Assembly (NCBI RefSeq): GCF_035917275.1 | Contig: NZ_CP108509.1 | Location: 806,001-870,000 of the forward strand | DNA from: Streptomyces sp. NBC_01237 | Lineage (GTDB): Bacteria; Actinomycetota; Actinomycetes; Streptomycetales; Streptomycetaceae | Reading direction: 5' to 3' | DNA: 64,000 bases | Shown here: one piece after another, positions 2,538 through 20,451 of the stretch | How the letters are laid out: every line of letters begins with the position of its first letter | How positions within the stretch are numbered: position 1 is the first letter of the stretch | The notes under the pieces: model-generated | Database searches by the model: none | The model's input: the letters and a program-made list of their open reading frames with translations, nothing else | Told to the model about the DNA's origin: nothing | Program-made: the position numbers and the translations under genes

Positions 2538-2555
2538 GCTCCGAGGGCCCCGGCA

Positions 2556-5603: not shown

Positions 5604-5668
5604 GACCGTCCTTCACATCCACGACACAGTTCCCGCCGGTCAGCTACGCACCAACATCATATCTACCT

Positions 5669-5860: not shown

Positions 5861-8626
5861 TCACCGCCGCCGCGCGTCGGTGAGGTCCACCGTCGCCGGT
5901 CCGCCCAGCAGGGACGGCAGGTCCGCGCGGCGGCTGATACGCAGCTTTCGGTACGTGCGGGTCAGGTGCTGCTCGACCGTGCTGACCGTGACGTGCAGAC
6001 CCTCGGCGATCTCCCGGTTGGAACAGCCGACCGCGGCCATGGCGGCCACGCGGCGCTCCGCCTCGGTGAGCCCGTCACCGCCGTCGGCCAGGGTCGGCAG
6101 CGGGGTGGCGCTCTCCACCGCCAGGCCCCGGACCAGGGCTTCGGCGTGGCAGTCCGCGGCCACGATGACCGCGCGGCGCTCGGCCGCCGCGGCCCGCCGG
6201 AACTCCCCCAGGGTCCGGTAGGCACGGGCCAGGTCGGCGAAGGTCAGGGCGAGTTCGTACCGGTCGCCGTCGTCGGACTGCAGCAGCTCCGCCGCCTGGC
6301 GCAGCAGCGTGGGCCGGTGCGCCGGAGCGCCGGCTCCGGCCAGGACCCGGGTCGCGGTGCCGCGGACCCGGTTCGGCATCACGGTGAACCTGGCCGACTG
6401 CTCCTCGAGTATCCGCCTGGCGTCGTCCGGGCGGCCCAGTCCCAGGTACACCTCGGCGACATCGGTTCGCCACGGGATCAGGCCAGGCGTGTCCATCCCC
6501 CACTGGCACAGCTTGGCACCGCACCGGCGCAGATCCTCCAGGGCCATCTCCAGGTGGCCGGTGGCCAGCCCGAACCGCGCCCGCGCGTACTGGTAGTGCA
6601 TGCCGTAGCGGGTGTCGAACATCGCCTCCGGTACCCGGTGGTCCAGGTAGGCCTGTGCCTCGTCGTAGCGGCCCATCGCGGTGGTGGCCAGGATCAGTGT
6701 GCTCAGCGGCGCGCCGACGGTCACTCCCCAGCTGATCGCCGGCAGGGTGGCGAGCGCTTCACCCGCGTACCGCAGGGCGTCGGTCAGGTCGCCCCGGCGC
6801 AGGGCGATCTCGGCCCGCACCGCGCCGAGTCTCGCCTGTCTGCTCGGCGTGTGCCGCGCCTGCATCCGGTCCAGGAACAGGTCGCACCAGGCTGTCGCAC
6901 GCTCGGCCCGCCCGCTGTACGCGAGGGTGAGGAGCGCGCTTTCGACGGTCTCGGTGGACAGCTCCTCCGGCCGGGTGCCGTGGAGCACCCGTTGCGCCAC
7001 GCCGACGGCTTCCTGGGAGGAACCTTCGCCGAGTACGGCGGCCAGCGCGGACACCGCCTGCAACCGGCGGTCGGCGCTCACCGAGTGCGTGGGGGGACGT
7101 CCGGCACCGGACCGCGGGCCGAGCGCGGCCAGGAACGACGGATAGGTGTGCCTCAGCCGGCGCCGGGTGATCTGTAGCTCGGTGGCTGTCTCCGGGTCCA
7201 TCACCTGCCCGGATCCGGCGAGGTGCCCGAGCACCTCCTGGGCCTGTTCGAAGCGGCCGTGCCAGAGCAGCGCCCGGACCAGCGTGAGCGCGTCGGCACC
7301 GCGCAGGCAGCCCTTTCGCATCGCCTCGACGAGTTCGCCGAGGCGGCCGCTGGACACACCGGGGTTGATGCTCCACTCGGCCCGGATCAGAGCGGCGGTG
7401 ATGCGTGCCCGCCGGAGCGAGTCCGTGCAGACCAGCCGGGCCAGCCGGAGGCAGTCCACCGCACGGCCGGCCGCACCGTCCCGCAGCGCGTGCGCCGCGG
7501 CGTCCTCCAGTGTCGGCAGCGCCCATGGCTCCTCCAGGGCACCGCCGTCGGCCGGCGCACCGGCGCGGAGCAGGTGGTCGGCGACCACCTCGGTGCCGGC
7601 ACCGCGCTCGTGGGCGAGGACCGCGGCGCGGACGTGCAGCCGGGCGAGTTCGTCGGAATCGATCGCGCCGACCACCGCGTCGCGGGCCGCCTCGTGCCGG
7701 AAACCGTCCATGGTGAGCAGTCCGCAGGCGATCAGCGCGTGCACCGCCTCCGTGGTCCGGGCGGGGCTCAGCCCCACCAGGCTGTCCAGGTTGTCCAGTT
7801 CGCCGAGCACCACGTAGCCGCTCAGCACACGGACCATGTCCGGGCGGCCGCGGCGCAGACAGGACAGTACGGATTCGCGGTAGCGCGGACCCGCCTCGTC
7901 ACCACCGAGGTGGTCGCGGACCAGCGCCTCGACCAGCAGCGGGTTGCCCCCGCTGTAGGCGTGCCAGTCGGCGGACCGCTCGTCGGCGATCGCCTCGCCC
8001 AGGTGCTGGGCCACCAACTGCCGCACGCCTGCCGGGGATACCTGCGTCACCTCGACGCGGTGACAGTTGGGCTGCCGCAGCAGGCCGGCCCCGAAGCGGA
8101 ACTCGGTGTCGCACCCGTGCCCGCTGTGCGTGAACACCGCGAGCACCCGGGCGCTGTTCAGCCGCCGCGCCAGGTACGCCAGACACGTCAGCGAGGCCTG
8201 GTCGGCCTGGTCCACGTCGTCGACGGCGATGTACAGCGGGCACCGTTCGGCCAGTTCCAGCAGAACGGTGCAGAGCCCGTGCACGATGCCGTCGTCCACC
8301 TGCGCTCCGGCGCCCTGGCACCGGGCGGCGCGCACGCCGTCCTCGATCAGCGCCACGGCCCGCGCCCGGTCCTCGGGGTCCAGCGGCGCGTCGTCCACCA
8401 ACTGCCGCACCACTCCCAGGGGCAGGTGCCGCTCGTCCTTGGATCCCAGCGCCGACAGCGGGAGCATTCCCAGACTCAGGGCACGATCGGCGAAGTTGTG
8501 CACCAGCACACTCTTGCCGGCCGCCACCGGTCCGGAGACCAGCACGGCGCGTCCGTGTCCGTCCCGCGCCTGTTCGGCCAGCGCGTTCAGTAGCGCCAAC
8601 GGTGTTTCGCGCTCCACCAGTTCCAC
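5861..8626 (-). CDS. LuxR-family LAL regulator
   Basis: 921 residues from the chosen GTG at 8626, which has GGAG six bases upstream and gives the typical LAL start VELVERETPLALLNAL. An upstream ATG at 8710 would add 28 atypical residues without a ribosome site. Seen: Walker A GPVAAGKSVLV near residue 31, Walker B-like LYIAVDDVDQAD, a long helical middle, and a C-terminal LuxR helix-turn-helix (LTEAERRVAAMAAVGCSNRE, then HVTVSTVEQHL) at about 855-914. Large ATP-binding LuxR proteins are cluster-situated activators of polyketide and peptide pathways. It lies downstream of mbtH, past that gene's terminator, so it probably has its own promoter. Confidence 0.9.
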   Translation of the reverse strand: MELVERETPLALLNALAEQARDGHGRAVLVSGPVAAGKSVLVHNFADRALSLGMLPLSALGSKDERHLPLGVVRQLVDDAPLDPEDRARAVALIEDGVRAARCQGAGAQVDDGIVHGLCTVLLELAERCPLYIAVDDVDQADQASLTCLAYLARRLNSARVLAVFTHSGHGCDTEFRFGAGLLRQPNCHRVEVTQVSPAGVRQLVAQHLGEAIADERSADWHAYSGGNPLLVEALVRDHLGGDEAGPRYRESVLSCLRRGRPDMVRVLSGYVVLGELDNLDSLVGLSPARTTEAVHALIACGLLTMDGFRHEAARDAVVGAIDSDELARLHVRAAVLAHERGAGTEVVADHLLRAGAPADGGALEEPWALPTLEDAAAHALRDGAAGRAVDCLRLARLVCTDSLRRARITAALIRAEWSINPGVSSGRLGELVEAMRKGCLRGADALTLVRALLWHGRFEQAQEVLGHLAGSGQVMDPETATELQITRRRLRHTYPSFLAALGPRSGAGRPPTHSVSADRRLQAVSALAAVLGEGSSQEAVGVAQRVLHGTRPEELSTETVESALLTLAYSGRAERATAWCDLFLDRMQARHTPSRQARLGAVRAEIALRRGDLTDALRYAGEALATLPAISWGVTVGAPLSTLILATTAMGRYDEAQAYLDHRVPEAMFDTRYGMHYQYARARFGLATGHLEMALEDLRRCGAKLCQWGMDTPGLIPWRTDVAEVYLGLGRPDDARRILEEQSARFTVMPNRVRGTATRVLAGAGAPAHRPTLLRQAAELLQSDDGDRYELALTFADLARAYRTLGEFRRAAAAERRAVIVAADCHAEALVRGLAVESATPLPTLADGGDGLTEAERRVAAMAAVGCSNREIAEGLHVTVSTVEQHLTRTYRKLRISRRADLPSLLGGPATVDLTDARRR

Positions 8627-9050
8627 CGCGAACTCCAACCATGGGTCAGTGAGAAAGAGGGAAAACCATTCCTCGGCCAGGCAGTAGGTCGCATACGTGT
8701 GCTGCGGCATCAGTGCATGCGTCTTCGCAACGTGCCCTCGTCGATGAGCCGCGGCGACTGCCGGGCGTTCCGGTCAGCGACGCGACCCATGCTTACCGCC
8801 CGGCTCATCGACCGGCTATCAGCGCGCTATCGGGTGTCACAGGCATCGGCCGTGCACCACGATGCGGAAACGAAAGAATCCTGATAGTGAACCGGTGACG
8901 GCGTCGGGGATTACCGAGGCGTCCAACGCACTCGGGACGAGTGCAGAATATCAATTCGATTCGTCTTCGTCCGCGCCTTCGTCAGCGGTACGCTGCCGCC
9001 CGCTTCCCGTCCGAAGCCTCACGCGGTGCGGGCCGGCGCGGAACACGCAG
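8627..9050. other. promoter region of the LAL regulator
   Basis: No gene seen. A 12-base perfect inverted repeat, GTCGATGAGCCG / CGGCTCATCGAC (8740-8751 and 8801-8812), is separated by 49 bases. The stretch 8880-8970 is unusually AT-rich for this DNA and could hold the LAL promoter. Confidence 0.4.
8740..8812. repeat. 12-base inverted repeat upstream of the LAL gene
   Basis: GTCGATGAGCCG at 8740 and its exact complement at 8801-8812, 49 bases between the arms. It lies 30 bases upstream of the alternative ATG and 114 upstream of the preferred GTG of the LAL gene. Could be a pair of half-operators bridged by a dimer, or a leader hairpin. Confidence 0.35.
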
Positions 9051-9085
9051 CCAGGGATCACGCCGCCTTGCGGCGTGATCCCTGG
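9051..9085 (-). terminator. strong hairpin terminator after mbtH
   Basis: Perfect 16-base stem CCAGGGATCACGCCGC / GCGGCGTGATCCCTGG with loop CTT, 19 bases beyond the mbtH stop. It separates the biosynthetic run from the LAL regulator. Confidence 0.8.
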
Positions 9086-9104
9086 CAGTCCTGGGGAGGG
9101 CGCG

Positions 9105-9320
9105 TCAGCCGGCCTGGTCCATCGCTTCGACGAGGCTCTTGGGACGCATGTCGACCCAGTGTTCGTTCACGTAGTCCAGGCACGTCTGCCGGGTCGTGCT
9201 CGGCAGGACGACGGTCCAGCCGGCCGGGACCTCTGCGAAATCCGGCCACAAAGAATACTGCTCCTCCGCATTGACCAGAACGCAGTATGAGGCATTCTCA
9301 TCCTCGAACGGATTACTCAT
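9105..9320 (-). CDS. mbtH: MbtH-like NRPS adenylation-domain chaperone
   Basis: 71 residues, the standard MbtH length. Seen: [24 protein letters not shown], then the invariant PAGW, a [12 protein letters not shown] block and a C-terminal tail. MbtH proteins bind the N-terminal part of NRPS adenylation domains and are needed for folding or activity of many of them. Likely partners here are the adenylation domains at 20.5-41.1 kb. The ATG at 9320 has AAGGAG upstream at long spacing. A 114-base gap separates it from the lysine aminotransferase-like gene and carries a copy of the GTAGGGGTTG motif, so mbtH may have its own promoter. Followed by a strong terminator. Confidence 0.95.
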
Positions 9321-9392
9321 GAGCCACCGCACTCCTTGTTTCCGCCGAAATACAAAGCTGCCCGTATTTTCGCCGCGCCACATCCTTCTGAC

Positions 9393-9410
9393 AACCCCTA
9401 CGCCCCCGTA
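9393..9410 (-). promoter_or_regulatory. cluster promoter motif upstream of mbtH
   Basis: On the leftward strand TACGGGGGCG is followed directly by TAGGGGTTG, about 71 bases before the mbtH start. The same GTAGGGGTTG core, also tandem, stands before the discrete adenylation gene (20372-20391) and the NRPS pair (31721-31751). Probably the site of a cluster activator. Confidence 0.4.
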
Positions 9411-9434
9411 CGCGATGCCGGATCCCGGAGTTCA

Positions 9435-10715
9435 TCACGCACTGATCGAGGTGAGAACCGCGTCCACCGCGGCAACCCCCTTGTCCAGGTCGTCGAGCCC
9501 GATGGTGAGTGCCGGGCGGAACCGTACGGCACTCCCCCCACCGGGCAGCAGCAGCACCCGGTGGAAGCGGCGCAGGCGGTCCAGGACCTCATTGCGCAGT
9601 ACCGGATCCGGCAGGTCGAACGCCCACATCAGGCCCAGGCCACGCACGTTGCGCACGAGCGCCGGGTGGGCCGCGGCCAGGTCGGCGAGCAGCCGGCCCA
9701 GGTGTCCGCCCTTGGTCTCGGCCGCTTCGACCAGGCCGTCCCGTTCGATGATCTCCAGGATCCGGGTGGCCCGCACCATGTCCACCGTGTTGCCGCCCCA
9801 GGTGGAGCCGAGCCGGTCCGGCACGGCCAGCGCGCCCTCGGGCACCTGGTCCACCCGGCCGCCCGCCATCAGGCCGCACACCTGGGTCTTCTTGCCGAAG
9901 GCCACCACGTCCGGTGCGAGCCCGAGCCGCTGGTAGGTCCACGGCGCGCCGGACATGCCGCAACCGGTCTGCACCTCGTCGAGCACGAACAGCACGTCGT
10001 ACTCATGGCACAGGTCCTGCATGCGCAGCAGGAATTCCCTGCTGAGATGCCGGTCTCCGCCCGCTCCCTGGATCGGCTCGGCGATGAAGCAGGCGATCCG
10101 GTCGCCGCGCTCGGCCAGATGCCGTCGCGCGACCTCGACCGCCGCTCGTTCGCCGCCGGGCCCGGGCACCGGTACGCGCGGCCACGTCCACACCGGGAAC
10201 CGCGCGGTCACCGTCGGCGAGGTGTTCGTCAGACTCAGCGTGTAGCCGCTGCGCCCGTGGAAGGCGCTCTCCATGTGCAGGACTTCCAGGGGCGCCGCCG
10301 GGTCGAGTCGCGGTCGCTGTGCTCGCCAGTCGAAAGCCACCTTCAGCGCGTTCTCCACGGCCAGGGCGCCGCCGTCGATGAAGAACAGGTGCGGCAGTCT
10401 CGTGTCGCCCAGCACCCGGCTGAACGTCGCCGTGAACCGCGCGTACTGCGCGGTGTAGATGTCGGAGTTGGTCACCTTGTGCAGCGCGGCCCTGGTGAGT
10501 TCGGCCAGGAACGCCCGGTCGCCGGTCATGCCGGGGTGGTTCATGCCCAGGGGCAACGAGCCGTAGAACGTGAGCAGGTCCAGGTACTCCTCGCCGCCGC
10601 GCGCGTCGACCAGCGTGCTGCCGCGGCTGCGTTCCAGGTCCAGTACGAGGTCCAGGCCGTCCATCAGGACATGCCGGGACAGTTCGTCCAGGGCGTTGTC
10701 CGCCGTGATCTCCAT
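9435..10715 (-). CDS. lat: L-lysine 6-aminotransferase-like class III aminotransferase
   Basis: 426 residues of fold-type I, class III PLP aminotransferase. It matches lysine 6-aminotransferase (LAT) block by block: GLDLVLDLERSRGSTLVDA, LPLGMNHPGM, VTNSDIYTAQYARF, LPHLFFIDGGALAVENALK, FHGRSGYTLSLTNTSPTVTA, and the PLP-lysine block VVAFGKKTQVCGLMAGGRVD. LAT converts lysine to 2-aminoadipate semialdehyde/piperideine-6-carboxylate, as in cephamycin pathways. No piperideine-6-carboxylate dehydrogenase is present. It starts one base after the HAD gene in an operon of carbohydrate-like enzymes, so its substrate may be a keto or aldehyde intermediate of that set rather than lysine. Confidence 0.85.
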   Translation of the reverse strand: MEITADNALDELSRHVLMDGLDLVLDLERSRGSTLVDARGGEEYLDLLTFYGSLPLGMNHPGMTGDRAFLAELTRAALHKVTNSDIYTAQYARFTATFSRVLGDTRLPHLFFIDGGALAVENALKVAFDWRAQRPRLDPAAPLEVLHMESAFHGRSGYTLSLTNTSPTVTARFPVWTWPRVPVPGPGGERAAVEVARRHLAERGDRIACFIAEPIQGAGGDRHLSREFLLRMQDLCHEYDVLFVLDEVQTGCGMSGAPWTYQRLGLAPDVVAFGKKTQVCGLMAGGRVDQVPEGALAVPDRLGSTWGGNTVDMVRATRILEIIERDGLVEAAETKGGHLGRLLADLAAAHPALVRNVRGLGLMWAFDLPDPVLRNEVLDRLRRFHRVLLLPGGGSAVRFRPALTIGLDDLDKGVAAVDAVLTSISA

Positions 10716-10716
10716 G

Positions 10717-11361
10717 TCACACCTCGTTACGCTGGTAGCGCCGCAGATCCAGCTCGTTCAGGCTGGGCAGCACCGCGTCGGCACCGGCCAGTCCGGCTGC
10801 CCCGGCCGGCTCCCAGGGCACCGCCACGCAGCGCAGACCGGCCGCCCGGGCGGCGCGGACCCCCAGCGGGGAGTCCTCGACGGCCAACGCGTCGTCGGCA
10901 GCCACCCCGGCACGTTCCAGCGCGAGCAGGTACAGGTCCGGTTCGGGCTTGTGCCGGTCGGTGTCGTCGCCGGTCACGAGGAAGCCGAAGCGGTGCCGCA
11001 GCCCGAGCCGCCGCAGGTGTTCCTCCACCCAGGCGCTCGGGCTGCTGGACACGATCGCGGCACCCTCGGCCGTGGACAGCAGCCGGTCCACGCCGGGCCG
11101 GGCCGGCGCGGCGGCGCACCGGGCGCTGCGCCGCTGCCGCTGCCAGGCCCACTCGTCGTCCCCGACCGGCCGGCCCAGCCGGGCGGCCAGGTCGGCCAGC
11201 GCGATCCGGGCTCCGGCCGAGTTGCCGAGCATCCTGGCCCGTACCTCGCCGCTCAGCGGAACCCCGAGCCGGTCGTAGAGGTCCTGCCAGGCCAGCAGCG
11301 CGGCCCGTTCGGTGTCGCACACCACACCGTCGAAGTCCAGCAGCAGGAACGGCGTGGGCAT
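10717..11361 (-). CDS. HAD-superfamily phosphatase (beta-phosphoglucomutase-like)
   Basis: 214 residues. Motif I LLDFDGVVCD carries both catalytic aspartates. Motif II is AIVSSSPS, the motif III region is HKPEPDLYL, and motif IV is AVEDSPLGVRAA. This is a subfamily IA HAD with a helical cap, typical of small sugar-phosphate phosphatases and phosphomutases. The ATG overlaps the stop of the RmlD-like gene by one base, indicating translational coupling. Likely role: removing phosphate from a NeuB- or transketolase-derived intermediate. The substrate is not deducible from sequence. Confidence 0.85.
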   Translation of the reverse strand: MPTPFLLLDFDGVVCDTERAALLAWQDLYDRLGVPLSGEVRARMLGNSAGARIALADLAARLGRPVGDDEWAWQRQRRSARCAAAPARPGVDRLLSTAEGAAIVSSSPSAWVEEHLRRLGLRHRFGFLVTGDDTDRHKPEPDLYLLALERAGVAADDALAVEDSPLGVRAARAAGLRCVAVPWEPAGAAGLAGADAVLPSLNELDLRRYQRNEV

Positions 11362-12251
11362 CAGTGGTTCACCGGCCCACGGTCGGCAGCGGTGAGCCGG
11401 GCGCAGTACCGGGAGAGGGCGTCGGTCCAGTGCGGCATCGCGTGCACGAAGGCCGCCGCGCGGGTGCTGTCCAGGCGTGAGTCGCGCGGCCGGCCGCCGA
11501 AGAAACCGGCGTCGGCCATGGACATCGGCACCGGGTGGGCGGTGCCGAGGCGTTCGGCGAGTGCCAGACCCACCTGGTACCAGCTCGCCCGGCCCCGGTT
11601 GGCGATGTGCAGCAGGCCGCGGACGGCCAGTGCGCCGGGCAGCAGCCGTACGAGCGCGGACGCCAGGTCGGGCACGTAGGTCGGGCTGCTGAACTGGTCG
11701 TCGATCAGTCGCGGCCGGCCGCCGTCGAGGAACTCCCGGGCGGCGGTGAGCACCTGGTCCAGGCGTGGGTCGCTGCCGCCGTACAGCCAGGACGTGCGCA
11801 CCACCAGGTGGTCGGGCACGACCTCGACGATCCGCTCGCCGGCCAGTTTGCTCAGGCCGTACACGCTGACCGGGGCGGGTATGTCTTCCTCGTTGTACCC
11901 GGCCGGACCGGGCGCCCGGCCGTCGAACACGTAGTCGCTGGAGATGTAGATCAGCCGGCTGCCGTTCCGCCGGCAGGCCTCCGCGACGTGATGGGTGCCG
12001 CCCACGTTGACGCGCAGGGCCGTCGCCGGGTCCCGTTCGCAGGAGTCCACCACCGCGTTCGCGGCGGTGTGCACCACCACGTCGGGCCTGAAATCGGCGA
12101 TCGAGTCCCGGACGGCGGTCTCGTCGCCGATGTCGAAGTCGCAGAGGGACACCCCGAGGACCGGCCAGTGGGCGGTTTCCGGCCGCGTCGCGAGCTCCTG
12201 CCGCAGGGCGGTGCCCAGCATCCCGTCCGCGCCGGTGAGGTAGACGCGCAT
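11361..12251 (-). CDS. RmlD-like NAD(P)H-dependent keto-sugar reductase
   Basis: 296 residues of the extended SDR/RmlD substrate-binding family. Seen: N-terminal Rossmann motif YLTGADGMLGTAL (TGxxGxxG), HTAANAVVDSCE, LIYISSDYVFDG, catalytic YGLSKLAGE (YxxxK), RTSWLYG and DDQFSSPTYVPDLA. Family members reduce 4-keto groups of nucleotide sugars or related polyols. No dTDP-sugar synthesis genes (rmlA/B/C) are nearby, so the substrate is probably not dTDP-linked. The ATG shares one base with the stop of the RraA-like gene, and the HAD gene overlaps its end. Confidence 0.85.
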   Translation of the reverse strand: MRVYLTGADGMLGTALRQELATRPETAHWPVLGVSLCDFDIGDETAVRDSIADFRPDVVVHTAANAVVDSCERDPATALRVNVGGTHHVAEACRRNGSRLIYISSDYVFDGRAPGPAGYNEEDIPAPVSVYGLSKLAGERIVEVVPDHLVVRTSWLYGGSDPRLDQVLTAAREFLDGGRPRLIDDQFSSPTYVPDLASALVRLLPGALAVRGLLHIANRGRASWYQVGLALAERLGTAHPVPMSMADAGFFGGRPRDSRLDSTRAAAFVHAMPHWTDALSRYCARLTAADRGPVNH

Positions 12252-12925
12252 CACAGGTGTCCGAACTCGGCGATCAGTTCGGCGACCGACAGGCCGGAGC
12301 CGATCTTCTCGCGGATCACCCGCTCCCTGTCGATGTTCATCCTCGTGCGGGCGAGCACGGTCTCGGCCTCGTCCTGCGGTACGACCGCGATGCCGTTCTC
12401 GTCGGCGACCAGGATGTCCCCCGGGTTGATCACCTGACCGTCGATCACCACCGGCACGTTCACCTGGACCGGCTCGGTACGGTCGTGCACGGCGGTCGGG
12501 GAGGGCCTCGGGACGGTGCTGCGGTACCAGACCGGGAAGTCCAGGTCGCGGATCTCGTCGACATCGCGGATGGCGCCGTCGACGATGCCGGCGGCCAGAC
12601 CGATCTGCCGCGACAGGGTGGACATCAGGCCGCCCCACATCGCGGTGCGGGTGGTGCCGTGGCAGGCCACCACGATCACGTCGCCCGGCTGCGCCCGGGT
12701 CAGCACCGGCATGCAGTCGACCAGGTCGTCGATGGAGAGATTGACGGTGAGCGCCGGTCCGGCGATCTTGTGATGGTGCTTCACCGGCAGCAGCCCGCCG
12801 ATCGCGCCGACCCTCCGCCGGGCATCGGTGACCAGGCAGCTCGGGCTGTACTCGGCGAGCACCGCCCGGAAGGCCTCGACGATCTCCTCGGGTGGGCGGT
12901 TCAGCTCGTTGCGGACAGTTTCCAC
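12251..12925 (-). CDS. RraA/HMG-aldolase-family pyruvate aldolase-like protein
   Basis: 224 residues from a GTG at 12925 preceded by GGGAGA, with 25 bases overlapping the 3' end of the transketolase gene. Seen: GPALTVNLSIDDLVDCMPVL, GDVIVVACHGTTRTAMWGGL, and GIVDGAIRDVDEIRDLDFPV. The DG-x-RD motif near 117 binds metal and pyruvate enolate in class II HMG/CHA aldolases, and NPGDILVADENGIAVVP is also typical. The family contains real aldolases and the RNase E inhibitor RraA. Actinomycetes lacking canonical RraA targets usually have the enzymes. Could add or remove a pyruvyl unit in the NeuB-transketolase pathway, or decarboxylate an oxaloacetate-like group. Confidence 0.8.
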   Translation of the reverse strand: METVRNELNRPPEEIVEAFRAVLAEYSPSCLVTDARRRVGAIGGLLPVKHHHKIAGPALTVNLSIDDLVDCMPVLTRAQPGDVIVVACHGTTRTAMWGGLMSTLSRQIGLAAGIVDGAIRDVDEIRDLDFPVWYRSTVPRPSPTAVHDRTEPVQVNVPVVIDGQVINPGDILVADENGIAVVPQDEAETVLARTRMNIDRERVIREKIGSGLSVAELIAEFGHL

Positions 12926-14862
12926 GGTGTGTCTCCCGTCGGTTGGGTGGTACGGGTGCGGTCCAGGACGTCCGCGCCGATCAGATGTGCCAGGTGCGCC
13001 GCGTCCATGCCGTGTGCGGCGAGTACTTCCGCGTCGGTGCCGCAGCGCGGTACGTCCGTGAGGCCGACGCCGCGGAAGGCGGTTCCGTCCGCGGCGCCCG
13101 TCTCCATCAGCTGACGGGCGATCAGGTCGGCCTGGCCGCCGCCGCTGTACTGGTGCTCGACCACGAACACGTGCGAAGTGCCGGTCAGCACCTCGCCCAG
13201 CCACACCGGGTCGACCCGGTTGTGCCAGGGCAGGTCCACCACGGTCAGCGCGAGGCCCTGTGCGGCGAGCAGGTCGGCGGCGCCCAGCAGCTGCGCGAGG
13301 ACCACCGGACCGGCGCCGAGGACGACCGCCCGGCCGCCGGTACGCAGTACCCGGCCCTGTCCGACCACCAGGGGCGCGGGCGGCAGATCCGCCAGTTCGG
13401 CGGGGACCGGCTGGCTGGACAGCCGCAGGTAGACGCTGTCCGGGGTGGAGCGGCAGTAGCGCAGGGCGGCGGCCAGCTGGGCCGGGTGGGACGGTTCCAG
13501 GATGGTCAGACCGGGGACGGCGCACAGCGCCGACACGTCGCGGACCGCCTGGTGCGAATGTCCGGGCCCGGCGGGCAGCAGCCCCGCGAGCGATCCGACG
13601 TACACCGCCGGCCGCCGCTCGGTGGCGTTGTTGTAGATGTGCTCGTTGGGGCGCGCGTGCAGGAAGCAGGAGAAGGAGTGCACGAACGGCCGCAGACCCC
13701 CGGCCGCCAGTCCGCCCGCCATCGAGACCATGTCCTGCTCGGCGATGCCGCATTCGACGAAACGGTCCGGGTGGGCCTCGCGGAACGGGATCAGGCCGGT
13801 GTCGAGCACCAGGTCGCCGTCGAGCGCGACGATCCGCGGATCCTCGTGTGCCGCCTCGGTGAGTAGCCGGCCGTACAGCTCGGGCAGCCGCACTCCGGCC
13901 GGTTTCACCGGCAGGTCCAGCGTTCGTTCGACCGGCCGGAGGGGTGACAGACCGTGGCTGCGGAGTATCCCGTCGGCGGTGTCGGTCAGCTCCTGGTGCG
14001 CGGAGCGGTAGTCCTGCGGGCTCGGCGCACCGCTGTGGTGGCGGTAGCGCCATTCGCCGGGTGCCATCGAGGTCGCGGCGAACGTGGGGCATCCGCCGCC
14101 CTTCACCGTTGCCGCGATGATCACCACGGGCTGCTCCGGGTAGTCCTCGGCGCGGCGGGCGAATGCCTTCTCCAGCTGCCGGGGATCGTGCCCGTCGCAG
14201 TGCAGCACGCCCCAGCCCGCGGCGGTGAACTTGCCCGGCAGATCGCCGAGGTCGCTGACATCGGTGACGAACGTGTCGGACTGCAGGCGGTTGTGGTCGA
14301 CCACCACGGTCAGCTCGCCCATCCCGTACCGCGCGGCGCTGGGCAGCGCCTCCCAGTTCTGGCCCTCCTGCAGTTCGCCGTCCCCGGTCATCACCACCAC
14401 CCGGGAGACCCGCCCGGCCAGGCGATGGGCGAGGATCAGGCCCTTCGCCTTGGAGATGCCCATGCCCAGGGAACCGGTGTTGAAGGGCATGTGCGGGGTG
14501 CCGACGTCGGGGTGACCGGGCAGCCCGTCGATCCGCCGCAGCCGGTGCAGGAGGTCCTCGTCCAGCGCTCCGAGCGCGATCATCGCGGCGTACAGTCCGG
14601 GCGCGTCGTGCCCCTTGGACGAGAAGTACACATCGCCGTCGGCCTCGAACGGCTGGTCGAGCTCCTCCAGCAGCAGCCAGCTGACCACGTCGGCGGCGCT
14701 GAAGCTGGAACCGATGTGGCCCGACCCGGCACGGGCGATCATGTAGAGGGTGTTGATCCGGGACATCGCCGCGAAGGCGAGGGCCCTGTCGTACGGATCG
14801 TCGACATGGCCCAGGACGCGCTCGAACTCGGTGCGCGGTATCCAGGCCAAGGAGCTGTCCAT
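12901..14862 (-). CDS. transketolase, full length
   Basis: 653 residues in one chain, with the ThDP-binding N-domain (GSGHIGSSFSAADVV at about 50, TGDGELQEGQNWEAL at about 157), the pyrimidine domain (RFVECGIAEQDMVSMAGGL, catalytic Glu near 373) and the C-terminal domain. Actinomycete paralogues of secondary pathways are often split into two genes; here they are fused. The ATG at 14862 follows GAGGAGAAGCC. Transketolases move a two-carbon ketol unit between ketose and aldose (phosphates). In this operon it could make the aldehyde acceptor for the NeuB-like enzyme or extend its product. A housekeeping role is unlikely given its place inside a coupled cluster operon. Confidence 0.92.
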   Translation of the reverse strand: MDSSLAWIPRTEFERVLGHVDDPYDRALAFAAMSRINTLYMIARAGSGHIGSSFSAADVVSWLLLEELDQPFEADGDVYFSSKGHDAPGLYAAMIALGALDEDLLHRLRRIDGLPGHPDVGTPHMPFNTGSLGMGISKAKGLILAHRLAGRVSRVVVMTGDGELQEGQNWEALPSAARYGMGELTVVVDHNRLQSDTFVTDVSDLGDLPGKFTAAGWGVLHCDGHDPRQLEKAFARRAEDYPEQPVVIIAATVKGGGCPTFAATSMAPGEWRYRHHSGAPSPQDYRSAHQELTDTADGILRSHGLSPLRPVERTLDLPVKPAGVRLPELYGRLLTEAAHEDPRIVALDGDLVLDTGLIPFREAHPDRFVECGIAEQDMVSMAGGLAAGGLRPFVHSFSCFLHARPNEHIYNNATERRPAVYVGSLAGLLPAGPGHSHQAVRDVSALCAVPGLTILEPSHPAQLAAALRYCRSTPDSVYLRLSSQPVPAELADLPPAPLVVGQGRVLRTGGRAVVLGAGPVVLAQLLGAADLLAAQGLALTVVDLPWHNRVDPVWLGEVLTGTSHVFVVEHQYSGGGQADLIARQLMETGAADGTAFRGVGLTDVPRCGTDAEVLAAHGMDAAHLAHLIGADVLDRTRTTQPTGDTPWKLSATS

Positions 14863-14888
14863 GGCTTCTCCTCGTGGATGGGTCGGTG

Positions 14889-15698
14889 TCACCAACAGCC
14901 GAACCCGCCGTCCACGGCGAGTTCGGTACCGGTGACGTAGCGGCTCAGGTCGGACGCGAGGAACAGCAGCGGTCCGGTGAGATCCTCGGCTCGGGCCATG
15001 CGCCGCAGCGGCACGCGGGCGTGGAACTTCTCCCGGAACGCGGGGTCCTGCGCGCCCAGTACACCGCCCGGCGACAGGGTGTTGACCCGCACCCCGGCCG
15101 GCCCCCACAGCGCCGCGAGGTACCGGGTGAGCGAGGCGACGCCCGCCTTGGACATGCCGTACGCGGGCGGTTTCAGGAACGGCGGATCCACCGGCAGGTG
15201 CTCGTACATCCGGGGGTCGGGCGCCAGGCCGCCGTACATCGATCCGATGTTGATGATGGATCCGCCGTCGTGCCGGGCCATCCACGACCCGAACACCTGG
15301 CACATCCGCAGCGTCCCCTGGGCGTTGACCGCGAGTATGCCGCCGGACACCTCGTCCGGGATGTCCTCGAAGCGCCAGCTGGCGCCCTGGGCCGACGGTG
15401 GACTGTCGACACCGGCGTTGTTGATCAGAATGGTCGGCTCGCCGGCCAGTTCGAGGCAGTCGTCGAGCGCGCGGCGCAGGCTGCCGGTGTCGGTGATGTC
15501 CGCGACCACCGTCGCGAACCGCTTCGGGTCGTGGCGGTCCAGCACCGCCCGCAGCTCCGGCCCGCGGGTGTCCCGCACGTCCAGGCCCAGCACATCGGCA
15601 CCGGCACCCAGCAGGGCGTCCACCCATACGGCGCCGAGCCGTCCGGACACCCCGGTCACGACGGCGACCGATCCGGTCAGGTCAATCGCGGTCGGCAT
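14889..15698 (-). CDS. short-chain dehydrogenase/reductase (PtmA-like)
   Basis: 269 residues, classical SDR. Seen: VVTGVSGRLGAVW (TGxxGxxG cofactor loop), ADITD, NNAGVD, NIGSMYGGLAPD, catalytic YGMSKAG, and C-terminal DLSRYVTGTELAVDGGFG. The loop form and the MYGGLAPDPRMYE-type insert resemble SDRs that accompany NeuB genes in surface-sugar and flagellin-glycan loci (PtmA type). It overlaps the NeuB-like gene by 17 bases, and 26 bases separate it from the transketolase start. Probably oxidises or reduces a hydroxyl of a polyhydroxy acid intermediate. Confidence 0.85.
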   Translation of the reverse strand: MPTAIDLTGSVAVVTGVSGRLGAVWVDALLGAGADVLGLDVRDTRGPELRAVLDRHDPKRFATVVADITDTGSLRRALDDCLELAGEPTILINNAGVDSPPSAQGASWRFEDIPDEVSGGILAVNAQGTLRMCQVFGSWMARHDGGSIINIGSMYGGLAPDPRMYEHLPVDPPFLKPPAYGMSKAGVASLTRYLAALWGPAGVRVNTLSPGGVLGAQDPAFREKFHARVPLRRMARAEDLTGPLLFLASDLSRYVTGTELAVDGGFGCW

Positions 15699-16749
15699 CG
15701 CCGTCCACCAGACCGTCCAGGGTGATGTCGGCGTCGGCCGTCAGCGGTCCGCCGAGGTGGCGGCCCACCACGTCGGCGAGCCGGTCGGGAGTCAGCCCGT
15801 CGCCCGGCGACTTGATCGCCACGTCCTCCAGGGTGAGGCGATGGCCTGCCGGCAGGTCCCGTTGGGCGACCAGCTTCTTGCCCATCTTGTTGACCGCGGG
15901 CCGCTCGCCCGGCATGACCTGCTTGTCCCGGCCGCCCAGCGAGCGCCGCACCCGGCGCAGCCCGTCGACCATTTCGGCCATGTCCGCCTGCTCCAGCGAG
16001 AACTTGTGGTCGCTGCCGGGCCGGGTGCGGTCGAGAGTGACGTGCTTCTCCACCACCCGGGCGCCGAGCGCGTACGCGGTCCAGGCGGCCCACGGGCCGA
16101 GGTCGTGCCCGGAGAAACCGACCACCGTCTCCGGGAACTCTGCCCGGTAGGTGCTCAGCACCGCCAGGTTCAACTCCTCGGGTTCGGCCGGGTACATCGC
16201 CGTGCACTGCAGCAGCGCGAGGTCCGGGTTGATCGGCAGAACGGTGCCGCAGGCGCGCCGTACGGCCTCCATGTCGGCGCCACCGGTACTCACGATCAGC
16301 GGCTTGCCCACCTTCGCCGCGTAGGCGAGCAGTGGTGTGTTCCTGATGTCCCCGGACGCGATCTTGATCGCCGGCACACCCAGTTCGGCCAGGAAGTCCA
16401 CGCTGGCGAAGTCGAAGGCGGTCGCGATGAAGTCCACGCGCAGTTCGGCCGACAGCTGCTGGAGGTACGTGTACTCGTGGGTGCCGAACTCGAGGAACTC
16501 GCGATGGGCCCCGTACGTCGGGCCGAAGCTGTTGCGTCCGGTGTAGGGGGAGTCGAACATCGCCCTGGTGTAGAGCGAGCGGTTGTTCCGCTTCTGCAGC
16601 TTGACCGCACTGGCCCCGGCCGCGGCTGCCTGACGTACCAACTCCTCCGCCTTGCCGAGATCGCCCTCGTGGTTGTGGCCGATCTCGGCGATCACATAGG
16701 CGTCGGTCCCGTCCGAAATGATCCGGTCATTTACCGTCAGCGCTCTCAT
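15682..16749 (-). CDS. neuB: NeuB-like PEP-dependent 2-keto-3-deoxy acid synthase
   Basis: 355 residues. The TIM-barrel part has VIAEIGHNHEGDL, AVKLQKRNN, FDFASVDFLAELGVPAIKIASGD, VSTGGADM, LLQCTAMYP, GFSGHDLG and VVEKHVTLDRTRPGSDHKFSLE, all NeuB hallmarks for PEP, metal and sugar-aldehyde binding. A C-terminal SAF (antifreeze-like) domain follows (about 290-350). The family condenses PEP with an aldose to give a 2-keto-3-deoxy-ulosonic acid. It begins five bases after the hpgT stop, so it belongs to the same transcript as the hydroxyphenylglycine genes. No CMP-sugar synthetase is nearby, arguing against a sialic-acid glycan. The acceptor aldehyde is unknown. Confidence 0.9.
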   Translation of the reverse strand: MRALTVNDRIISDGTDAYVIAEIGHNHEGDLGKAEELVRQAAAAGASAVKLQKRNNRSLYTRAMFDSPYTGRNSFGPTYGAHREFLEFGTHEYTYLQQLSAELRVDFIATAFDFASVDFLAELGVPAIKIASGDIRNTPLLAYAAKVGKPLIVSTGGADMEAVRRACGTVLPINPDLALLQCTAMYPAEPEELNLAVLSTYRAEFPETVVGFSGHDLGPWAAWTAYALGARVVEKHVTLDRTRPGSDHKFSLEQADMAEMVDGLRRVRRSLGGRDKQVMPGERPAVNKMGKKLVAQRDLPAGHRLTLEDVAIKSPGDGLTPDRLADVVGRHLGGPLTADADITLDGLVDGDADRD

Positions 16750-16754
16750 GGTTC

Positions 16755-18083
16755 TCAGGTCCTCTCCAGAAGATCGGTCACCAGCGAAGCGAACCGGTCC
16801 AGACCGAGGTCGATCTTCTCCGGCGTGAGCGAGCTGCAGGACAGTCGCAGCTGCCGCAGACCGCCCCCTGCCGCGTAGAAGTGGTGCATCGGCGTCCAGA
16901 TGACCTTGTGCCGCTTGGCCGAGTAGGCGAGCAGGTCGTCGTCGGCGACGAACGGCACCGTGACGACCAGGAAGAATCCGCCGTCCGGTCGGTTCCAGGT
17001 GACCGGCGACGTTGTCGGGAACCGCGCGGCCAGCCCGTCGAGCAGATGCCGCAGCCGCTGTCCGTACCGCGCGGTGGCGTCCCGGTTCGCCTCGCGCAGA
17101 GCGAAGTCGCTCTCCAGCAGCCTGCCCCCGATGACCGCCTGCGCGATCGGCGGGGTATTGACCGTGATCATGCTCTTGATCTTCGAGAGCTCGTCGGCGA
17201 GGGTGCCGACGAGCTCTCCGTCCCGCACGACCGGCTGCTCCGCCACCACGAACCCGATCCGGGCACCGGGCAGGGCGGTCTTGGCGTACGAGCCGAGATA
17301 GACGACCCGATGGCCCGTGTCCAGCGACTTGAGCGTCGGCTTCGGGGGCGCGCCGTCACCGAAGAAGCCGTACGGGTTGTCCTCGATGAGCAGGATGTCC
17401 AGCTCCGCGGCCAGTTCCAGCAACCGGTGCCGGGTCGGTACGTCGAGACTCAGTCCGGTCGGATTGGCGAAGTCGGGCACCAGATAGCAGGCCCGGGGCC
17501 GCAGTCCGGCCTCGCGTGCGCCGCGCACCTTGGCCGCCAGGTCGTCCAGGTCGATGCCGCCGGAGCCGCTGTCGACCGGCACGAGGGGCATATCGACCAG
17601 ACGGGCCGCGCCGGTGATGCCCACATAGGCCGGCGAGGTCGCCAGGAGCACATCGCGGTCACCGGCGCGCAGCGCGCGCAGCACCAGGACCATGGCCTCC
17701 TGACAGCCGACGGTCACCAGGATCGACTCCGGGTCGACGTGGATGTTCTCGTCGGTCACCAGGTTGCGCGCCACCAGGTCCTGGATCACCCCTTTCGTCG
17801 CGCCGTACTGGTAGAGCCGGTTGCGGGCCACCTCCGCGCCGTGGGGCGTGCCGTCGGTGACGTACGCGGTCCAGGTACGCAGAAAGCGGTGGACGTCCTC
17901 CACCGAGAAGGCGCCCGGGTCCGGCCGTCCGGCCGCGAAGGAGACCGCGTCCGGGTACCGGTCGGACACCTCGTTCAGCAGGTTCATCGACAGCAGCGCC
18001 GGATCGGACAGCGACCCGTGCAGGTCGGCCAGGTCCATCACCGCCCCGGGGCGTGCCGTCCGGGCAGCGGACGACTCGGTCAT
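16755..18083 (-). CDS. hpgT: 4-hydroxyphenylglycine aminotransferase
   Basis: 442 residues from ATG 18083, which overlaps the Hmo stop (ATGA). A fold-type I aminotransferase closely resembling glycopeptide HpgT: ADLHGSLSDPALLSMNLLNE, DAVSFAAGRPDPGAF, LVTVGCQEAMVLVLRAL, YLVPDFANPTG, LLIEDNPYGFFG, and the PLP-lysine block YLGSYAKTALPGARIGF (Lys near 266). It transaminates 4-hydroxyphenylglyoxylate to L-4-hydroxyphenylglycine, usually with tyrosine as donor. It completes the trio HmaS-Hmo-HpgT. Confidence 0.92.
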   Translation of the reverse strand: MTESSAARTARPGAVMDLADLHGSLSDPALLSMNLLNEVSDRYPDAVSFAAGRPDPGAFSVEDVHRFLRTWTAYVTDGTPHGAEVARNRLYQYGATKGVIQDLVARNLVTDENIHVDPESILVTVGCQEAMVLVLRALRAGDRDVLLATSPAYVGITGAARLVDMPLVPVDSGSGGIDLDDLAAKVRGAREAGLRPRACYLVPDFANPTGLSLDVPTRHRLLELAAELDILLIEDNPYGFFGDGAPPKPTLKSLDTGHRVVYLGSYAKTALPGARIGFVVAEQPVVRDGELVGTLADELSKIKSMITVNTPPIAQAVIGGRLLESDFALREANRDATARYGQRLRHLLDGLAARFPTTSPVTWNRPDGGFFLVVTVPFVADDDLLAYSAKRHKVIWTPMHHFYAAGGGLRQLRLSCSSLTPEKIDLGLDRFASLVTDLLERT

Positions 18084-19189
18084 CGCGCCTCCCGTTCGTT
18101 CGTTCCGGGCGCCCACCGCACGCCCAGCCGCCCGGCCGCGTCCACGTGCGGCGCGCCGGCGAGGGCCATCGACACCTCCAGTTCGGTGCGCAGCAGTTCC
18201 AGCGCCCCCCTCACGCCCTGCTCGCCGCCGGAGGCCAGTCCCCACAGGACCGGCCGGCCGAGCAGCACGCCGGAAGCACCGAGGGCCAGCGCGCGCAGCA
18301 CGTCGGTGCCGCTGCGCACACCGCTGTCCAGCAGCACCTCGCACGCGTCGCCGACCTCTTCCCGGATCGCCGGCAGGGCCAGGAGGCTGGGTACGGCGCC
18401 GTCCAGTTGCCGGCCGCCGTGATTGGACACCACCAGGCCGTCCGCGCCGAGGTCCACCGCGCGCCGCGCGTCCGCCGGGTCGAGAACTCCCTTGAGCACC
18501 AGCGGTAATCGCGTCCGTCGCCGGACCCATTCCAGGTCGGACCAGGACAGTGTGGGGTCGATCACCGCGGCCGCGTGCCCGCCGACGCTCTGCCCGGCGC
18601 CGCGTTGGGTGTCGGCCAGGTTCACCGGTGCGGCGTGCGCGGGCACGGCGAACCCGTTGCGCAGATCGCGCAGCCGTCGGCCCATGAACGGAACGTCCAC
18701 GGTGAGGATCAGGGCGCGGGCGCCCAGCCGTTCGGCCTCCCCGATCAGCCACTCGGTGCGGGCCCGGTCGCGCAGCCAGTAGAGCTGGAAGAACAGGTCA
18801 CCGCCGGAGCCGGACAGTTCGTCCAGCGGGCAGCCGGCCAGGGTCGCCGCCGTGAAGGGGATGCCGGCCGCCGCCGCCGCACGGGACACCGCGGGTTCGC
18901 CGTCCGGGTGCACCACCGAGTGGAACGCCATCGGCGCCACCGCGACGGGCATCGACGTGGGCGCCCCCAGCAGGGTGGTCGTGGTGTCGGCGGTGTCCAC
19001 CCCGGACAGGACGCGAGGGACCAGGTGACACCGGTCGAACGCGGCCCGGTTGGCGTCCAGCGTCGACTCGCGGCCGCTTCCGCCGGCCACGAAGTCGTAC
19101 ACCTCGGGCGGCAGCACGGCGCGGGCCCGGTCCTCGATGTCGGAGAGGGTGAGCGGATCCGCCGCCAGGACGGCCTGTCCGCCGGTCAC
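18080..19189 (-). CDS. hmo: 4-hydroxymandelate oxidase, FMN-dependent
   Basis: 369 residues of the FMN alpha-hydroxyacid oxidase family (glycolate oxidase/mandelate dehydrogenase). Seen: PPEVYDFVAGGSGRE at the N-terminus, VAVAPMAFHSVVHPDGE, FFQLYWLRDR, LTVDVPFMGRRLRDLRNGF, VLKGVLDPADA, the catalytic VSNHGGRQLDG block near 250 (His base and Arg), and LLDSGVRSGTDVLRALALGA for FMN phosphate. It oxidises 4-hydroxymandelate to 4-hydroxyphenylglyoxylate. Start and stop overlap both neighbours by four bases, showing tight coupling in the hydroxyphenylglycine set. Confidence 0.92.
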   Translation of the reverse strand: MTGGQAVLAADPLTLSDIEDRARAVLPPEVYDFVAGGSGRESTLDANRAAFDRCHLVPRVLSGVDTADTTTTLLGAPTSMPVAVAPMAFHSVVHPDGEPAVSRAAAAAGIPFTAATLAGCPLDELSGSGGDLFFQLYWLRDRARTEWLIGEAERLGARALILTVDVPFMGRRLRDLRNGFAVPAHAAPVNLADTQRGAGQSVGGHAAAVIDPTLSWSDLEWVRRRTRLPLVLKGVLDPADARRAVDLGADGLVVSNHGGRQLDGAVPSLLALPAIREEVGDACEVLLDSGVRSGTDVLRALALGASGVLLGRPVLWGLASGGEQGVRGALELLRTELEVSMALAGAPHVDAAGRLGVRWAPGTNEREAR

Positions 19190-20196
19190 GCCCGGTCCTG
19201 TCGCTCGACCGCCTCGTACAGCTTGCGGATGTTGTTGCTGCCGAACGTGGTCGCGCCGCGGCGTTCGATGATCTCCATGAAGAGGGTGCGGCGCGGGTGC
19301 TCGGACCGGGTGAAGATCTGGAACAGCTCACCGTCGTGATCCCGGTCGACGAGCACGCTGTGCTCGCGCAGCTCCGACACCGGATGGCCGGAGGACCCGT
19401 GCCGCTGTTCGAGGTTCTCGTAGTAGGTGTCGGGCGTGGACAGGAACCGCACGCCGGCGGTGCCGAGATCGGCCACCGCGTCCACGATGTCCGGCACCGC
19501 GAAGGCCAGGTGCTGCACACCGCTGCCGCCGTGCTTCTTCAGGAAGTCGTCGATCTGGCCAGGGGCGGCACCGCTCATGGGCTGGAGCAGCGTCAGCGTC
19601 ACCCGCCCGCACGGGCTCTGCACCACCTTGGACTGCATGGCCTGCGCGCCGACGTGGATGTCCTCCTCGAACACCACCTGCCAGCCCAACAGCCGCCGGT
19701 AGGACTCGACGGTTCGCTCCAGTTCACCGTTCTCCACGCAGACCGCGATGTGGTCGACGCACAGCAGGTGCCGCTCGGCCGGCGCCGTGGGCCCCGTGGT
19801 CTCCTCGGTGCGCACCGGTGCGATACCGGGCAGCGACCAGGGTCCACCGGCGGGCCGGCTCACAAAGGTGTGCGTCACGTCGCCGAAGGCTTCGAGCACC
19901 GTGGGGTCCGGCTCGTCCACCAGCAGGGCGATGTCACTCACGCCGTCGCCGTGCCGGGTGGTGAACAGGGTGGCGGGATGGTCGTCGGTGCGGCCCTCCA
20001 GCAGCACCAGGACGACGTCCCGCTGCCGCACCGCCACGGCGGTGAACTCCGGGGTGTCCCCGGCGGCGATCACCTCGAAGCCGTAGCGGTCGACGAACTC
20101 GGCCGCACGGGCGCGGGCGTCACCGACGGAGAGTGTGATGTGGTCGATGCCGGCGTCGACGGCGTGCTGATTTCTGGTCTGGGGTGCGGACGACAC
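19186..20196 (-). CDS. hmaS: 4-hydroxymandelate synthase
   Basis: 336 residues from GTG 20196, preceded by GGGGGAATTC; upstream ATGs lack such a site. Two vicinal-oxygen-chelate domains related to HPPD. The iron ligands are visible as VDHIAVC (His near 147), VQHLAF (His near 227) and FMEIIE (Glu near 309). The QSKVVQSPCGRVTLTLLQP and GQIDDFLKKHGGSGVQH blocks and the end FGSNNIRKLYEAVE match HmaS more closely than HPPD. It converts 4-hydroxyphenylpyruvate and O2 to 4-hydroxymandelate and CO2. First gene of the leftward operon. No prephenate dehydrogenase is nearby, so the precursor must come from primary metabolism. Confidence 0.93.
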   Translation of the reverse strand: MSSAPQTRNQHAVDAGIDHITLSVGDARARAAEFVDRYGFEVIAAGDTPEFTAVAVRQRDVVLVLLEGRTDDHPATLFTTRHGDGVSDIALLVDEPDPTVLEAFGDVTHTFVSRPAGGPWSLPGIAPVRTEETTGPTAPAERHLLCVDHIAVCVENGELERTVESYRRLLGWQVVFEEDIHVGAQAMQSKVVQSPCGRVTLTLLQPMSGAAPGQIDDFLKKHGGSGVQHLAFAVPDIVDAVADLGTAGVRFLSTPDTYYENLEQRHGSSGHPVSELREHSVLVDRDHDGELFQIFTRSEHPRRTLFMEIIERRGATTFGSNNIRKLYEAVERQDRA

Positions 20197-20451
20197 GAAT
20201 TCCCCCAAGGATCGATAATCGGTTTCAACGGCGGGAACAAGAATTTCCAGATCCCGGTACCGCGACGAAAAAACGCTACGGACGGGCACGGAAGAATGTC
20301 AATGCACCCTGCTGGGAGCCGCCCAACAGTGCGGAACACCCCTTCCCGCACCTGGGTACCGGGGTATCCGCTATGGGGTTCGTAGGGGTTGCGCGCGCCA
20401 CCGCGGCGGGTGAATATGCGTGCGATCGAAGCTGCGGACAAGGAGCGGTAC
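20197..20451. promoter_or_regulatory. divergent promoter region between hmaS and the discrete adenylation gene
   Basis: 255 bases without a gene between diverging starts. For the rightward gene, TATGGGGTTCG is followed by TAGGGGTTG (20372-20391), an 11-base-spaced direct repeat sharing its core with the mbtH and NRPS promoters. An AT-rich patch near 20260-20295 may serve hmaS. Confidence 0.5.

Follow-up and report, generated by a model that had tools for sequence, protein, structure and literature searches.

The window considered here is a stretch of 64,000 nucleotides from the genome of Streptomyces sp. NBC_01237 (10.19 Mb, 4 contigs), and the system in question is a cassette of seven minus-strand genes, at positions 9435–16749, within a nonribosomal peptide synthetase (NRPS) cluster of the hydroxyphenylglycine (Hpg) type. 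The genes encode a NeuB-family synthase, a short-chain dehydrogenase/reductase (SDR), a transketolase (TK), an RraA-like protein, an RmlD-like reductase, a HAD phosphatase, and an aminotransferase of the lysine 6-transaminase (LAT) family. We consider it likely that together they constitute one pathway, derived from ulosonic-acid sugar synthesis, that supplies this NRPS with a non-proteinogenic alpha-amino acid, probably a polyhydroxylated one. The conserved, co-inherited precursor pathway is real, and an amino acid is its likely product. This interpretation rests on genomic context, on co-inheritance, and on the transaminase.

Organization of the operon

A single run of genes on the minus strand extends from position 20289 to 9105, and encodes, in order of transcription, the following proteins.

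19186–20289, minus strand: hydroxymandelate synthase type enzyme of the 4HPPD family (HmaS; family match)
18080–19189, minus strand: FMN-dependent alpha-hydroxy-acid oxidase of the hydroxymandelate oxidase type (Hmo; family match)
16755–18080, minus strand: class I/II aminotransferase (family match), which we take to be HpgT
15682–16749, minus strand: NeuB-family phosphoenolpyruvate (PEP)-condensing synthase with NeuB and SAF domains (PF03102, E 2.8e-69)
14889–15698, minus strand: SDR oxidoreductase (family match)
12922–14862, minus strand: full-length TK with three TK domains
12251–12925, minus strand: RraA-like member of the 4-hydroxy-2-oxo-acid aldolase/oxaloacetate decarboxylase superfamily (E 4.2e-37)
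11361–12251, minus strand: RmlD-like extended SDR reductase (E 9.5e-70)
10717–11361, minus strand: HAD-IA phosphatase (family match)
9435–10715, minus strand: LAT-family class III aminotransferase with Ala218 at the glutamate switch (family match and alignment)
9105–9323, minus strand: MbtH-like protein (PF03621, E 3.9e-28)

The seven cassette genes were originally predicted to be overlapping or near-abutting, and both their coordinates and their families are borne out by the open reading frames (ORFs), each of which has a strong family match in Pfam or NCBIfam. The RmlD-like protein passes its cut-off narrowly (228.6 versus 224.05 bits), and for the SDR the top of 25 NCBIfam rows, all below cut-off, includes mannonate, gluconate 5-, and KduD dehydrogenases. 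The genes for NeuB and SDR overlap by 17 nucleotides (nt), those for TK and RraA by 4 nt, and those for RraA and RmlD, and for RmlD and HAD, by 1 nt each; gaps of 26 nt and 1 nt separate SDR from TK and HAD from LAT. Only 5 nt lie between HpgT and NeuB, and the largest gap in the run, 111 nt, falls between LAT and MbtH. It is confirmed that the seven-gene set continues one operon with the Hpg genes, and HmaS, Hmo, and HpgT are present together with an NRPS, as in an Hpg-type cluster.

Distribution and co-inheritance of the cassette

A scan of genome contigs with the NeuB protein gave 17 loci, 15 of them with TK (L numbers denote loci). These 15, the window, and six genomes (G520, G349, G186, G953, G451, and G612) make up 22 cassette loci, in which families were named by Pfam on representatives and then traced by tblastn; in each protein search the best 120 matches were considered. 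The set NeuB-SDR-TK-RraA is found in all 22 loci, and RmlD and HAD in 21, the locus that lacks them being L013 of Micromonospora rosaria. Named loci belong to eight genera: Streptomyces, Actinomadura, Actinophytocola, Nonomuraea, Actinokineospora, Pilimelia, Micromonospora, and Acrocarpospora. A transaminase gene lies by the cassette in every locus, LAT-like in 7 and of the branched-chain type (BCAT) in 15.

The LAT-like gene and the Hpg genes occur together in seven loci: the window, L003 (Streptomyces sp. TSRI0281), L004, L005, L019, G451, and G612. For four of these (the window, L003, L004, and L019) an NRPS proper falls inside the stretch examined. The complete order HmaS-Hmo-HpgT-NeuB-SDR-TK-RraA-RmlD-HAD-LAT-MbtH also recurs in L003, L004, L005, L046, and L047, and is the same in L019 (Acrocarpospora) except that an additional gene separates HpgT from NeuB and that MbtH is elsewhere. 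A chance arrangement is rejected, since the order recurs in many loci. The extra gene of L019 is WelO5-like (9165–9986), and a gene of the MqnA/MqnD type (PF02621; 17179–18003) directly follows the LAT-like gene there.

The co-occurrence with Hpg genes that had been put forward for checking holds for these 7 loci, but the other 15 stand in other contexts, so the cassette is not special to Hpg clusters. In L013 the core is accompanied by a BCAT gene and a medium-chain dehydrogenase/reductase (MDR) gene and lies between two NRPS genes. The other 14 loci all add an FAD oxidase of the aldonolactone oxidase (ALO) family as well as BCAT, whose representatives score 329 bits against a cut-off of 292 and 280 bits against 246, respectively. 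A relative of an ATP-grasp ligase is found in 13 of these 14 (the exception, L015, is truncated by a contig edge), and an aldo-keto reductase (AKR) relative in 11 (not L010, L018, or G349). Further genes vary: glutamate mutase and a GntB-like hydroxylase in L011, L012, L014, and G520; a TauD-type oxygenase in L006 and L007; and a further aminotransferase, of class III, together with an aldehyde dehydrogenase in L008 and L018.

The ATP-grasp ligase clusters that carry the cassette along with variable genes for a second amino acid (L006–L012, L048 with L012, L014, L018, L032, L034, L036, and L038) apparently represent an undescribed family of small peptides. Several of them also encode a protein family of about 445 amino acids that has no Pfam or NCBIfam match and looks ATP-grasp-like by eye. 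Two further NeuB relatives (L016:3510-4610 and L017:10001-11065; 60–62% identity) have the same active-site changes as the cassette enzyme, without TK or RraA in the stretch examined, and were left out of the 22 loci. A shorter version of the cassette may exist, because the NeuB gene of L016 adjoins genes for an MFS transporter and for the ATP-grasp-like family.

The cassette is rare in genome samples that were evenly drawn, non-exhaustive, and overlapping. TK at E ≤1e-150 is found in 8 of 392 Streptomyces genomes (five of the Hpg type, three of the ligase type) and in 6 of 394 genomes of the class, one of which is the diverged G750. Of 296 genomes of the phylum, 4 have RraA at 1e-30, but in two of them the relative is only 40% identical and the stretch examined shows neither NeuB nor TK; loci L040 and L041, with RraA of about 40% and neither NeuB nor TK, were set aside. 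Plasmid records gave no TK match at 1e-60, and RraA matches only below 60% identity.

In line with the original proposal of a single pathway, the genes co-vary across loci. Over the 20 loci that have all six shared genes, pairwise distances co-vary with r of 0.51–0.95, and over 13 non-Hpg loci with r of 0.30–0.84 (permutation p ≤0.024 in all 15 gene pairs, SDR-RraA being the weakest). That the cassette genes are one inherited unit is thus supported.

The LAT-like aminotransferase

The label LAT-like stands as far as family score is concerned, for the protein reaches 569 bits against the cut-off of 521 for the NCBIfam L-lysine 6-transaminase, and its closest PDB entries are lysine epsilon-aminotransferases. 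It is, however, no ordinary lysine transaminase, as it has Ala at the position of Glu243 in the Mycobacterium tuberculosis LAT. We take Glu243 to be the switch residue, consistent with the sequences of wild-type 2cin and of 2jjh, which likewise has Ala. Among the 120 homologues listed the switch is Glu in 95, Ala in 22, and Ser in 3; the 25 non-Glu proteins group in a single clade (support 0.99) that is further set apart at positions 52, 55, 79, and 303. The catalytic Lys and the R422 equivalent are kept in all 120.

Within Streptomyces, LAT at 1e-110 is found in 21 of 392 genomes. The five with at least 88% identity are exactly the five Hpg-type cassette genomes, all with Ala; the remaining 16 have 50–58%, and the 10 of these that were examined all have Glu. 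Four more distant non-Glu LATs apparently share genomes with NeuB relatives, those of L019, S. antimycoticus, and Micromonospora among them, which suggests that cassette linkage extends beyond L019. Several other non-Glu LATs have no partner among the 120 NeuB relatives listed.

The loss of the glutamate switch suggests, from sequence, a transaminase re-aimed at an alpha-keto acid. We propose this substrate because the LAT-like enzyme is found in the place of BCAT and because the unpaired Arg would suit an alpha-carboxylate. It is unlikely that the enzyme performs ordinary epsilon-transamination of lysine, toward aminoadipate semialdehyde or pipecolate, with the six other genes supplying a separate hydroxylated acyl or hydroxy-acid unit: the equivalog cut-off is passed and the nearest structures are those of lysine enzymes, but the switch and further clade-specific positions are altered, within Streptomyces the Ala form goes with the cassette, and the gene occupies the transaminase place of the sister cassettes. 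It is quite improbable, too, that the terminal aldehyde of a polyol is aminated to give a diamino or cyclic imino acid whose alpha-amine is set by another transaminase, for example HpgT. The class III omega-transaminase fold would allow such an omega-amination, and the ALO-family oxidase of the sister cassettes could make the aldehyde; the window, however, has no ALO-family FAD enzyme, and the loss of the switch would favour an alpha-carboxylate substrate.

Active sites of NeuB and TK

In the NeuB protein, numbered after Neisseria NeuB by alignment with 1xuu, E25, K53, Q55, T110, K129, S132, S154, Y186, H215, E234, H236, and D247 are kept, and the PEP and metal residues of a nonulosonic acid (NulO) synthase are present. 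Three residues are changed: N184 to Ala, E134 to Asp, and R314 to Ser. The position of R314, which presumably reads the N-acetyl group, is Ser in all 120 relatives listed, and that of N184 is Ala in 115 and Ser in 5; the same alignment shows a non-wild-type residue at the R314 position in PDB chains 4ipi and 4ipj. The protein also falls below the equivalog cut-offs for NeuB (273 versus 400 bits) and PseI (203 versus 340 bits). The changes at R314 and N184 make an N-acetylated substrate unlikely for the cassette enzyme.

The TK protein keeps the His set and the catalytic Glu of human TK. In all 20 cassette TKs, and in 120 of 120 proteins that resemble the TK of the diverged locus L039 (see below), S345 is replaced by Asp, H416 by Leu, and D424 by Pro; R318 is replaced in both groups throughout, and R474 is kept, with a gap in one cassette TK. 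The TK of a second distant locus, L045, has Tyr at 416. If R318, S345, H416, and R474 are the phosphate-binding set of the human enzyme, as we assume, only R474 is retained in the window TK. These losses point to non-phosphorylated partners across the whole TK subfamily. Position 314 of NeuB is also Ser in L039, with Ala at 184, and is Ala in the other NeuB of the window's own genome, with Ser at 184. The residue losses were rejected as proof of use in amino-acid synthesis, since sugar-type relatives share them.

CMP-transferases and the proposed sugar ancestry of the cassette

The CMP-transferase family (PF02348) was searched in 16 genomes and TK was placed in 18; in the 15, including the window's, that have both answers and TK, no PF02348 gene is found near the cassette. 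The nearest one on the same contig is about 285 kb away in G008 and about 2 Mb in G003; the other 13 genomes have the family on a different contig. The window's genome has a sole PF02348 gene, located on a different contig (C1), where it adjoins another and different neuB (C1:5626310; 36% identity). No relatives of this CMP-transferase are found in the stretches of the 22 loci at E up to 1e-8, although the same query recovers that of L039.

Absence of a CMP-transferase, of RmlA, RmlB, and RmlC, and of a glycosyltransferase was part of the original prediction. None of the first four is found among the window proteins scanned with Pfam, a set that covers not every ORF, but a GT1-type, EryCIII-like glycosyltransferase is encoded at 54828–56063, about 38 kb from NeuB, with helicase-like and HTH-NACHT genes as neighbours. 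The operon itself has no glycosyltransferase gene. The only RmlC match of the genome is on another contig (RmlA and RmlB were sought by Pfam among window proteins), and a role for the RmlD-like protein in dTDP-rhamnose synthesis was rejected on that ground. The lack of nearby PF02348 genes in the cassette genomes and stretches makes a CMP-sugar product unlikely. A linked CMP-NulO synthetase with a glycosyltransferase, which had been named as a finding that would refute the original reading, was not found near the cassette in the 15 genomes, and the combination is present in the distant relative L039 only.

L039 (positions 1–5541) belongs to G750, from another family of the class. Its contig begins within a NeuB gene (52%), followed by SDR (49%), an aldehyde dehydrogenase, a PF02348 protein, and TK (48%); Wzy_C, FkbM methyltransferase, HAD, capsule-synthesis, glycosyltransferase, and C5-epimerase proteins are also encoded. 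RraA-type matches in G750 reach at most 38% and are on other contigs. In L045 (G190; 4033–10326), TK (45%) is preceded by an aldehyde dehydrogenase, an ApbA-type reductase, a CMP-transferase-type gene, identified by its 54% match to that of L039, and an enolase-superfamily protein; NeuB has no match in this stretch. Both capsule-type loci possibly make ulosonic-acid sugars of a new kind. L039 TK belongs to a broad subfamily: metagenome-assembled genomes of Binatia, Opitutaceae, and Thermoleophilaceae are among the 120 matches listed.

The NeuB-SDR-TK trio, as these loci indicate, is not amino-acid-specific by nature, and its diverged form beside a CMP-transferase in L039 suggests that the cassette was recruited from the synthesis of ulosonic-acid sugars. 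Peptide clusters would appear to have taken over a ulosonic-acid module in which CMP-activation was replaced by RraA and a transaminase; the full trio is seen beside a CMP-transferase in one locus, L039. That the cassette itself makes a ulosonic-acid sugar, activated by an unlinked enzyme and glycosylating the peptide, is very unlikely: L039, L045, the GT1 gene, and the PF02348 gene beside the other neuB would fit it, but no PF02348 gene is near the cassette in the 15 genomes, the sister cassettes adjoin amino-acid ligases and a transaminase, and the operon has no glycosyltransferase. Given the peptide-making contexts and the missing PF02348 genes, the amino acid or acyl unit of the original prediction is the best reading.

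Proposed pathway

We infer the reactions, their order, and the product from the observed gene content, co-inheritance, contexts, and residue changes. NeuB would condense PEP with a small aldehyde lacking an N-acetyl group to give a 2-keto-3-deoxy acid, the chain of which would be remodelled by SDR, TK, and RraA. In this, TK would mediate a C2 ketol transfer that involves a non-phosphorylated partner, and RraA would act at the pyruvyl end in an aldol-type step. The RmlD-like reductase, perhaps with a distant MDR, would set the oxidation level, and the HAD protein would remove phosphate. The switchless LAT-like transaminase would then aminate the alpha-keto acid, the task of BCAT in the sister cassettes, and an adenylation (A) domain of the NRPS would load the resulting amino acid.

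More tentatively, and with somewhat less than even confidence, the cassette may represent a general route, as yet undescribed, by which PEP and an aldehyde derived from a sugar are converted to a single type of alpha-amino acid, via NeuB aldol condensation, C2 transfer by TK, RraA, and a transaminase. Such a route, taken from capsule-sugar synthesis, would be common to the otherwise unrelated NRPS and ATP-grasp systems in eight genera and point to hidden peptides that form a family through a residue they share. In a bolder form of this idea, RraA would close a ring by intramolecular aldol reaction; the resulting polyhydroxylated cycloalkylglycine would be in keeping with a branched-chain-type transaminase. 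Products of the hydroxynorvaline type, dihydroxylysine, and polyhydroxypipecolate were considered and found no support.

Several observations weigh against an amino-acid product, or against its being the same in all loci. None of the five A-domain codes read in the window could be assigned to a polyhydroxy residue. The LAT-like protein scores as a lysine 6-transaminase, and L019 has a 40% BCAT relative in addition to it, so that the LAT-like enzyme need not replace BCAT in that locus. The ALO, BCAT, and AKR genes that accompany the other cassettes are missing from the window, and the products of the two kinds may therefore differ. The co-variation of distances may partly reflect the relatedness of species, and the PF02348 search covered the genomes of 15 of the 22 loci, many of them fragmented assemblies. 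L039 combines its diverged trio with a CMP-transferase, a glycosyltransferase, and capsule genes; glycosyltransferases surround TK and the CMP-transferase-type gene in L045; and the residue losses of NeuB and TK are shared with L039 (both enzymes) and, for NeuB, with the other enzyme of the window's genome.

If the proposal is correct, a pathway for cell-surface sugars now serves to produce an amino acid, and a simple evolutionary change, the loss of one glutamate, went along with a lysine transaminase acquiring a new substrate. The combination of NeuB, this type of TK, and RraA would also allow genomes to be mined for NRPS and ATP-grasp peptides that are so far unexplored.

The NRPS and other genes of the window

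The peptide synthetase genes and a possible further member of the cassette are located as follows, where C, T, TE, and MT denote condensation, thiolation, thioesterase, and methyltransferase domains.

20416–21903, plus strand: stand-alone A domain (Pfam)
24577–31806, minus strand: NRPS, C-A-T-C-A-T-TE (domain scan)
31565–41083, plus strand: NRPS, A(MT)-T-C-A-T-C-A-T (domain scan)
45872–46942, plus strand: quinone-reductase-like MDR oxidoreductase, possibly of the cassette (relatives near other cassettes)

The real start of the plus-strand NRPS probably lies downstream of the listed GTG; its first module has the methyltransferase within the A domain and no condensation domain ahead. A minus-strand ORF (20575–21852) at the stand-alone A domain was rejected as being on the wrong strand. 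Five A-domain codes were read by eye: DAIFMGGMA, DAHWLGMTC, DPFVWAAII, DACLMGTMC, and DFWNIGMVH. The second is presumably nearest to the Hpg code, and the last, from the final A domain of the NRPS at 24577–31806, we take to be Thr-like. The codes at the first two places in L019 are DAIILGAMA and DAHWLGLTC, and both codes examined in M. rosaria are of other types.

Further genes around the cassette encode an O-methyltransferase, a P450, an MFS transporter, a sulfotransferase, and the quinone-reductase-like MDR. The distant MDR gene may belong to the cassette, because relatives of 53–62% identity accompany the cassette in 11 of the 15 loci with other contexts, the exceptions being L008, L009, L010, and G349. 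No relative is found in the stretches examined of six other Hpg-type loci, stretches that fall short of its distance.

Relation to known systems

The nonulosonic and ulosonic acid pathways that employ NeuB, SpsE, or PseI (1xuu, 1vli, 8h2c) share the NeuB fold and the PEP and metal residues, whereas the window has TK, RraA, and a transaminase instead of a nearby CMP-transferase. The L-lysine epsilon-aminotransferase Rv3290c (2cin) is of the same family as the LAT-like enzyme, with the same catalytic Lys and R422 equivalent. The window enzyme differs in having Ala for Glu243, Gly for N328, and Gly at position 64, and in falling in a clade of its own.

A number of NRPS clusters contain built-in pathways for non-proteinogenic amino acids, such as those for the Hpg glycopeptides and the calcium-dependent antibiotic (CDA). 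The window has the same Hpg trio, MbtH, and tailoring genes, but differs in placing a second precursor pathway, of the sugar-acid type, within the same operon. C2 units are also supplied by thiamine enzymes in the biosynthesis of vazabitide/ficellomycin and anisomycin. Among open-licence full-text literature, no title or abstract was found that describes the present combination of enzymes.

In scleric acid biosynthesis, transketolase-type domains supply a C2 glycolic unit, and the cluster also encodes an ATP-grasp enzyme, an MFS transporter, and an NRPS module (PMC6335953). The enzyme described there is split and works with lipoyl and acyl-carrier partners, whereas the window has a full-length TK accompanied by NeuB and RraA (PMC6335953); the words NeuB and sialic are absent from the text of that paper. 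The encoding of a precursor pathway within a peptide cluster is of a known kind, and it is the set of enzymes that is unusual.

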